A stretch of 52,193 nucleotides of DNA from Thiomicrospira sp. (GTDB taxonomy: Bacteria > Pseudomonadota > Gammaproteobacteria > Thiomicrospirales > Thiomicrospiraceae). Location: NCBI RefSeq assembly GCF_014859555.1, contig NZ_JACUTY010000008.1, positions 1 through 52,193 of the forward strand, given 5' to 3'. The position numbers and the translations under genes are program-made. Under the pieces are notes generated by a model that was given only the letters and a program-made list of their open reading frames with translations, was not told the origin of the DNA and ran no database searches. Shown here piece by piece: positions 2,963-3,296 of the stretch; within the stretch, counting starts at the first letter, position 1, and each line of letters begins with the position of its first letter.

Positions 2963-3023
2963 ATTAAATTAGAAGTGAATAAAACACCTGCCAGAGCGGC
3001 AAGCTTTAACTAAAGGATACGCC

Positions 3024-3245
3024 ATGAATATTTCTGGATCGGCGATGCACAATGCCTACACTGGCATTCAAACGGGGTTCAAAAACCTTGAATTAAATAG
3101 TCAAAAAATTGCCAGCCCGAATGTGCCCGACAAAGCTGAACCGCTGATTATGCATAAGCTGGATGCGAATCTGGTGGAAACCTCAGCCAAAGTGATCAAA
3201 ACCAGTGATGAAATGCTGGGCACCTTACTTGATGTCATGGCTTAA
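3024..3245 (+). CDS. Flagellar rod/hook-like miniprotein (both termini, no core)
   Basis: This is a 73-residue protein. Its N-terminus (MNISGSAMHNAYTGI, then LNSQKIASPN) resembles the N-terminal motif of axial flagellar proteins such as FlgB/C/F/G, where an A..G....N..IAN helix is conserved. Its C-terminus (AKVIKTSDEMLGTLLDV) closely resembles the C-terminal helix of FlgC/FlgE/FlgG. The large central domain is absent, so this is effectively the two coiled-coil ends joined. It has its own promoter and a strong AAAGGA binding site, and no other flagellar gene is nearby. The function is unknown. It could be a degenerate rod gene, but the clean start, compact frame and signals argue for a real gene. 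Confidence 0.75.
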   Translation: MNISGSAMHNAYTGIQTGFKNLELNSQKIASPNVPDKAEPLIMHKLDANLVETSAKVIKTSDEMLGTLLDVMA

Positions 3246-3274: not shown

Positions 3275-3296
3275 TAACCACCAGGCCTGGTGGTTA
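3275..3296. repeat. Iterated palindrome, 22-base perfect copy
   Basis: The core CCAGGCCTGG is at 3281-3290, with perfect symmetry extending over 22 bases. It sits between convergent genes and its last three bases are the stop codon of the PAS/GGDEF/EAL gene. It has no T-tract, so it is a poor intrinsic terminator. Confidence 0.9.

Follow-up and report, generated by a model that had tools for sequence, protein, structure and literature searches.

A 73-residue protein of Thiomicrospira sp. and its relatives as candidate D0-only kin of flagellar axial proteins

The window analyzed here is the whole stretch of 52,193 nt of contig NZ_JACUTY010000008.1 of Thiomicrospira sp. In this stretch, ORF calling places a frame of exactly 73 codons at 3024–3245 on the forward strand, starting with ATG, as a previous sequence-only reading had reported, and the constraint on this frame and its homologues go beyond what chance would give. 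Direct reading of the sequence identifies a Shine-Dalgarno-like TAAAGGA (3011–3017, forward strand) upstream of the start codon and, downstream, a perfect and terminator-like palindrome of 22 nt (TAACCACCAGG/CCTGGTGGTTA; 3275–3296, no strand), which sits between this gene (hereafter, the mini gene) and a convergent PAS-GGDEF-EAL-like gene, named from its translation. Two genes on the same strand precede it. At position -1 (2304–2906) is found a 200-aa protein with a signal-peptide-like N-terminus and no Pfam family at E ≤ 0.01, a homologue of which occupies the same position in 28 of the 58 loci compared; at position -2 (652–2298) lies a 548-aa protein identified by Pfam as APH-AAA_33 kinase-like, with a homologue at -2 in 27 of the 58. 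All these homologues fall within the window's own family, so that the region 652–2906, a kinase-like gene followed by a probable exported protein, is kept upstream of the mini gene in 27 and 28, respectively, of the 30 loci of that family, although neither gene has an evident functional link to the mini gene. Flagellar genes are not found near the mini gene of the window. The length of its product varies from 67 to 85 aa across 30 loci, the window's own among them, and from about 67 to 100 aa among members of the mini family. Examination of synteny and orthologues had been proposed by the sequence-only reading; the former revealed the conserved kinase-like and 200-aa upstream genes in the window's family and neighbors of which most, where read, have no flagellar identity (they include bio genes and the kinase), and the latter revealed homologues across the Pseudomonadota.

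Purifying selection on the mini gene is indicated by dN/dS ratios of 0.03–0.11 in the eight orthologue pairs having a finite dS; four further pairs were saturated, and one pair of unequal length was left out. The genes of this genome that carry the rod/hook domain PF00460 are located on other contigs (C14 and C31), and no second match to the mini ORF exists in its own genome at E ≤ 10. Because dN/dS is low, the flg genes lie elsewhere and the genome holds no other match, the mini ORF of the window is a genuine gene under selection rather than a piece of a neighboring flg gene. The sequence-only reading had pointed to recent deletion of an intact neighboring flg gene as the finding that would count against its interpretation, and this origin is now excluded by the same observations together with the homologues. 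A deletion remnant, or a spurious ORF, might be imagined from the very short length of the frame and from its Pfam match to Flg_bbr_C, which remains sub-threshold (residues 52–70 of the protein; 3177–3233, forward strand); however, the dN/dS values, the conservation across the class and beyond, and the own-genome search contradict it, and such an origin is scarcely credible.

Regarding sequence kinship, the Flg_bbr_C segment of the window protein reaches 19.3 bits (cut-off 23; E 8e-4), and this family (PF06429) is matched by 30 of 44 members of the mini family at E ≤ 0.1, with a best value of 1.3e-10, in a tally that found 16 Pfam families for these members at that threshold. The N-terminal rod model Flg_bb_rod (PF00460) was found at E ≤ 0.1 neither in the window protein nor in any of the 44 members, and therefore the proposal that both ends of an axial protein are present is less well supported for the N-terminal half. 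Profile searches of the PDB extend the picture. Thus, 12 of the 13 matches obtained at E ≤ 1 with profile A4 (44 rows) are FlgE, FlgG, FlgK (HAP1) or FlgC, the best with an E of 6e-4, and 12 of the 14 matches of profile A3 (20 rows) are flagellar, with the best-aligned stretches at the C-termini of axial proteins; weak extra alignments of A3 put profile positions 5–34, 7–34 or 5–46 onto the N-terminal ends of FlgK, FlgE and FlgG, and do so in the right order. The narrower profile A1 gives a weak result: its 13 matches at E ≤ 10 are headed by an artificial repeat protein (E 0.0018), and 5 of them are flagellar, with a best value of 0.18. NCBIfam has no family for the window protein; among the 44 members at E ≤ 0.1, in a tally that lists no cut-offs, models of FlgK, FlgG and FlgE are matched, FlgK ends being found in 10 members (best 5.6e-6). 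Other small-protein families were also considered. Homology to FliE and to YjfB, the latter a family of putative motility proteins, was rejected since neither Pfam model matches any of the 44 members at E ≤ 0.1, and weak matches to the type III secretion inner-rod protein YscI in three members (best 0.0033) were not counted. The FxxxPhi motif, which marks early export substrates, occurs within the first 50 residues of only 11 of the 44 members.

The AlphaFold (AF2) model of the mini protein is a two-helix hairpin (helices 3–30 and 38–72; pLDDT 90.8), in which the N- and C-terminal helices are predicted to pair in the antiparallel manner of a D0 domain. Foldseek searches with this model gave no match at E ≤ 0.001, and no flagellar chain was present among the best 50 rows (best E 0.3). 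When the candidates were realigned with VIA-align, FlgC became first among the best 50 rows (7bin_V; Z 9.0, rmsd 2.0, 71 residues aligned, 13% identity), accompanied by FlgG (7cbm_A; Z 8.3, 24% identity over 68 residues) and FlgE (3a69; Z 7.9, rmsd 1.3, 60 residues aligned, 25% identity); the remaining rows among the 50 listed do not exceed 19% identity, except for a second distal-rod row (8wki_s, 24%). The aligned ranges of FlgC, FlgG and FlgE begin with the first residues of those chains and finish with the last ones, so that the hairpin overlies both termini at once. Since the best 50 rows of Foldseek held no flagellar chain, these flagellar rows come only from the VIA-align step, and the fold by itself is weak evidence because helical hairpins are common and Z values of 8–9 are not decisive for them. 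Nevertheless, profile and predicted fold agree on an axial D0 kinship, and the best reading of both is that the mini protein is kin to the D0 portion of axial proteins and probably works like it.

The distribution of the family has been followed mainly in one set of genomes. A single mini protein used as query matched 37 of 93 genomes, its own included, and profile A4 matched 202 of 369 genomes of the class at E ≤ 0.01, many of these matches being full-length axial proteins. Stand-alone copies, taken as open frames of up to 200 aa with E down to about 2e-6 among the matches listed, which reach an E of about 3e-5, are present in at least 91 of the 369 genomes; this count leaves out G132 and G121 (very long open frames) and G154 and G274 (full-length FlgE-like proteins), and includes copies of G279 and G163 in which the match is confined to the C-terminal half. 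The A4, FlgI and PF12118 searches are taken to cover one and the same draw of 369 genomes, and the comparison with FlgI is restricted to that draw, a table that added genomes examined only as mini-positive having been set aside. FlgI was found in 195 of the 369 genomes, and a stand-alone mini gene in at least 81 of these 195 vs at least 10 of the 174 FlgI-negative genomes (Fisher p 9e-17; among the matches listed, 81 genomes with both, 114 with FlgI only, 10 with mini only and 164 with neither), a p value that overstates independence because the genomes are related by descent. Six of the ten FlgI-negative carriers have FlhA, and another, G141, has flagellin and was therefore rejected as a flagellum-less genome. 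Within the genus of the window, G002 and G007 possess FlhA and gave no mini copy with the single-protein query, and in G005 FlhA, FlgI, flagellin and the mini gene are all absent. As no copy was counted in 114 of the 195 FlgI-positive genomes, nor found in G002 and G007, the mini gene looks dispensable.

A sample of the phylum gave matches at E ≤ 1e-6 in 39 of 329 genomes. Seven of these genomes do not belong to the class; in five of the seven the open frame measures 83–215 aa, and in G461 and G547 it measures 608 and 275 aa, respectively. Carriers that could be named include Methylophaga, Glaciecola, Ferrimonas, Andreprevotia, Caulobacter, and Pseudomonas. Literature searches, one of them limited to whole words and guessed locus numbers, gave no description of this small family, which is apparently old, widespread, unstudied and mostly present in flagellated bacteria. 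As side observations, a copy on a contig titled Mycobacterium sp. MBM (L097:3735–4028) is nearly identical to that of Pseudomonas weihenstephanensis, and this assembly looks contaminated. Other short axial-like proteins, of about 100–120 aa, were seen in a member of the Desulfobulbaceae (L089:3151–3513, with a readable N-terminal rod motif), in a member of the Alphaproteobacteria (L091:105–650), and in a Proteobacteria MAG (L094, near 8001). Separate reduced axial proteins may thus exist besides the mini family.

A recurrent link has been found between the mini gene and a gene for a SprA-related protein. A gene with the loose motif RDxEVRxHExxH lies near mini in 19 of 83 loci, all outside the window's family; those tested belong to the Pfam family SprA-related (PF12118). 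This family is present in 81 of the 369 genomes of the class (73 of the 195 FlgI-positive and 8 of the 174 FlgI-negative ones). Among the matches listed, 57 genomes have both genes, 34 mini only, 24 SprA only and 254 neither (p 3e-24), and within the FlgI-positive genomes the same classes count 51, 30, 22 and 92 (p 8e-10); both p values overstate independence because of shared ancestry, yet several gene contexts recur. Both genes are on one contig in 36 of the 57 genomes, and in 32 of the 57 the matches are less than 300 bp apart, always on the same strand. For example, the order comF/bioH-mini-SprA is found in G199, G725 and G406, and bioF-bioH-bioC-bioD-mini-SprA in G595, whereas SprA is upstream of mini in G140, G182 and G296; the bio, comF and acyl-CoA dehydrogenase names used here were assigned from translations and carried over by tblastn, without a family search. 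On the other hand, 34 of the at least 91 mini carriers are without a SprA-related gene, G222 with its Pseudomonas-like neighbor among them. The genome of the window has a SprA-related gene that does not adjoin the mini gene; it lies on another contig (C32; L171:6188–6994, reverse strand), next to genes for a GGDEF response regulator and a methyl-accepting chemotaxis protein. In Campylobacter jejuni, the SprA-related protein CJM1_0395 was present in the supernatant of the wild type and absent from that of a flgG mutant, and a CJM1_0395 deletion mutant grew and swam as well as the wild type (PMC5223770). A zincin-like fold has been predicted for PF12118 (PMC3650047), and the zincin assignment rests on that source because the model of one SprA member (mean pLDDT 65.9, with a confident core and residues 9–53 and 69–95 below pLDDT 50) found no PDB match at E ≤ 0.001.

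Some genomes keep both genes but few or no flagellar markers. In G158 and G422, where FlhA, FlgI, flagellin and full-length axial genes were searched, none of these was found, and G091, which is without FlhA, FlgI and flagellin, also retains its adjacent mini-SprA pair (G422 and G091 are among the 32 close pairs). Together with the mostly non-flagellar neighbors, such as bio genes and the kinase, these cases would fit a flagellum-independent envelope or protease module that has borrowed an axial hairpin, the flagellar link being a correlation of lineages. We regard this explanation as unlikely, given the association with FlgI (its p value inflated by shared descent), the axial homology and the sigma-28-like promoters described below; moreover, the assembly of G158 is broken into 560 contigs and its mini and SprA copies look incomplete, and in G091 three further Flg_bbr_C matches exceed the cut-off.

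The C-termini provide a second link. The mini protein of the window ends in D-V-M-A, all 44 rows of profile A4 end in A or V, and D occupies position -4 in 42 of the 44. C-termini of the type D/N-[ILV]-x-[AV], as in mini proteins, are common among the SprA-related proteins: 16 of the 28 in the set fit [DNS][ILVFM]x[AV] vs 14 of 731 background ORFs, although the 16 are not independent events because the 28 proteins are mutually related, and 15 of 27 have D at -4 plus a terminal A or V. The SprA-related protein of the window's genome does not have a tail of the D-x-x-[A/V] type. The slot that mini occupies beside SprA in other genomes holds, in G154 and G274, a 395-aa full-length FlgE-like protein in which Flg_bb_rod, D1, FlgE_D2 and Flg_bbr_C each exceed the Pfam cut-offs. 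This paralogue ends in SLFDATA and scores 39–43 bits with the mini profile, while other axial-length frames do not exceed 32 bits among the matches listed (the very long frames of G132 and G121 aside). Both copies of this FlgE-like hook paralogue (L169:1584–2771 and L170:1332–2519), with their mini-type C-terminus, lie off the contig of FlgI. We read the paralogue as linking the mini family to a FlgE-like protein, the direction of the change being a matter of inference. The original suggestion that only the two ends of an axial protein are kept, with the middle gone, is thus favored by the profile, by the fold and, in one lineage, by the FlgE-like paralogue in the same slot, its N-terminal part being weak by sequence.

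Promoter searches have been carried out upstream of the mini genes with a sigma-28-like consensus scored out of 12 (TAAAG-N14-GCCGATA). Outside the window's family, sites scoring at least 10/12 occur upstream of 5 of 45 mini genes, where dinucleotide shuffles would give 0.20, and of 2 of 33 in a second set, where simple shuffles would give 0.2; each set includes one perfect 12/12 site, in Glaciecola (L082) and G675. In the window's family, scanned with consensus variants from its own flagellin genes, no enrichment was detected (1 of 29 at a score of at least 10, with about 1 expected). A looser scan of 83 upstream regions at p ≤ 0.05 gave sigma-28-like sites in 12 and sigma-54-like promoters in none. 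Sigma-28 control of mini genes is therefore supported, as judged from promoter motifs, in some lineages, the window's own family not being among them. The sequence-only reading had suggested that the protein could be a cap, decoy, adaptor or export-pacing protein; these promoters in other lineages and the SprA partner point to a late, secretion-related accessory rather than a builder of the rod. A structural role has nevertheless to be weighed, in which the protein would be a spacer located where hook and filament join or within the proximal rod, similar to FliE and unlinked to SprA. The D0-only architecture, the rod protein FlgC as top-ranked superposition and the carriers without SprA (34 of at least 91) would agree with it; but no copy was counted in 114 of the 195 FlgI-positive genomes, Pfam FliE is unmatched in all 44 members at E ≤ 0.1, and the recognizable promoters are of the late sigma-28-like kind and not those of early genes (sigma-54-like, 0 of 83), all of which makes a spacer very unlikely.

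Some information about localization may come from Pseudomonas. In Pseudomonas lundensis (L101) and in G473, G477, G556, G693 and G540, the mini gene follows bioF-bioH-bioC-bioD and an acyl-CoA dehydrogenase gene lies some kb downstream; no SprA motif was found in the 14-kb stretches of the last five. We take this position, after bioD and before the acyl-CoA dehydrogenase gene, to be that of the PA0505 locus in P. aeruginosa, and if PA0505 is indeed an orthologue, as gene order and locus numbers would have it, it is the mini member of that species. In one study, PA0505, without predicted localization, was captured at the surface of intact cells (PMC3511353); this is weak support because ribosomal and other cytoplasmic proteins were captured as well, as the same text indicates (PMC3511353). 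Such capture, if the orthologue is right, together with the pairing with SprA, whose Campylobacter relative is extracellular (PMC5223770), speaks against a protein that stays inside the cell, where its hairpin would mimic D0 ends, bind a flagellar chaperone or the export gate and tune export as a regulator or decoy. That role would be compatible with a very short, D0-only protein missing the central domain, with the window copy lying away from flagellar genes, with sigma-28-like promoters in some lineages, with flagellated relatives in which mini was not found, and with the scarcity of the FxxxPhi motif (11 of 44 members), and we consider it rather doubtful.

Our preferred reading, held with about even confidence, is that the mini protein is a late, flagellum-associated, D0-only subunit, probably exported and often cooperating with a SprA-type protein. 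It would be a stand-alone axial subunit made of the paired terminal helices of hook and rod proteins with D1/D2 missing, synthesized late in flagellar assembly and presumably exported by way of the flagellar type III export gate, like hook and rod subunits. Its hairpin could then pack against D0 helices, either those of the axial structure or those belonging to other export substrates, and the protein may act as an accessory that adapts the conduit for secreted proteins, such as those of the SprA type, or escorts them, with the D-x-x-[A/V] C-terminus on mini and SprA as a possible common recognition handle. A more specific version is put forward only tentatively, as a possible case: a two-gene flagellar accessory-secretion module formed by a D0-only pseudo-axial subunit derived from a FlgE-like protein and a SprA-type HExxH protein, both with D-x-x-[A/V], in which mini would dock on axial D0 helices or the export gate and the flagellum would secrete or display the predicted protease after filament start. 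This kinship is of biological significance because flagellar axial proteins are usually seen as a closed parts list, and mini would be a D0-only relative outside it; its presence in about two fifths of the FlgI-positive genomes sampled, pseudomonads included, and its recurrent predicted-protease partner suggest an accessory layer of flagellar export. The mini-SprA pairing also offers a testable route to how non-flagellar proteins exit via the flagellum.

Comparison with known systems helps to place the family. The mini protein should not be classed as FlgE, FlgG, FlgC or FliE, because the features that define these proteins were looked for and not found in it. FliE, a small, helical, axial-like proximal rod or adaptor protein, resembles it in these three traits; however, FliE is general in flagellated bacteria whereas mini is found in at least 81 of 195 FlgI-positive genomes, and none of the 44 members has a Pfam FliE match. 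The uncharacterized PA0505, compared by position alone, shares with mini genes a matching place in gene order. The SprA-related proteins of PF12118, which include CJM1_0395-like predicted zinc metalloproteases, are frequent neighbors and often carry the same tail type, but they are distinct proteins for which no homology to mini is claimed. In its own genome, the FlgC-, FlgF- and FlgG-like proteins end without the D-x-x-[A/V] of mini (the ends of FlgE and FlgK being outside the loci read). Finally, the hook and rod proteins FlgE, FlgG, FlgF, FlgC and FlgK differ from the mini protein in size and location, since the latter, with about 67–100 aa in the family and 73 aa in the window, is too short for the central D1/D2 domains of the FlgE/F/G type and is encoded in the window away from flagellar genes; but they resemble it in the C-terminal helix, as judged by profile, and their D0 domain shows the paired-helix arrangement predicted in the mini model.
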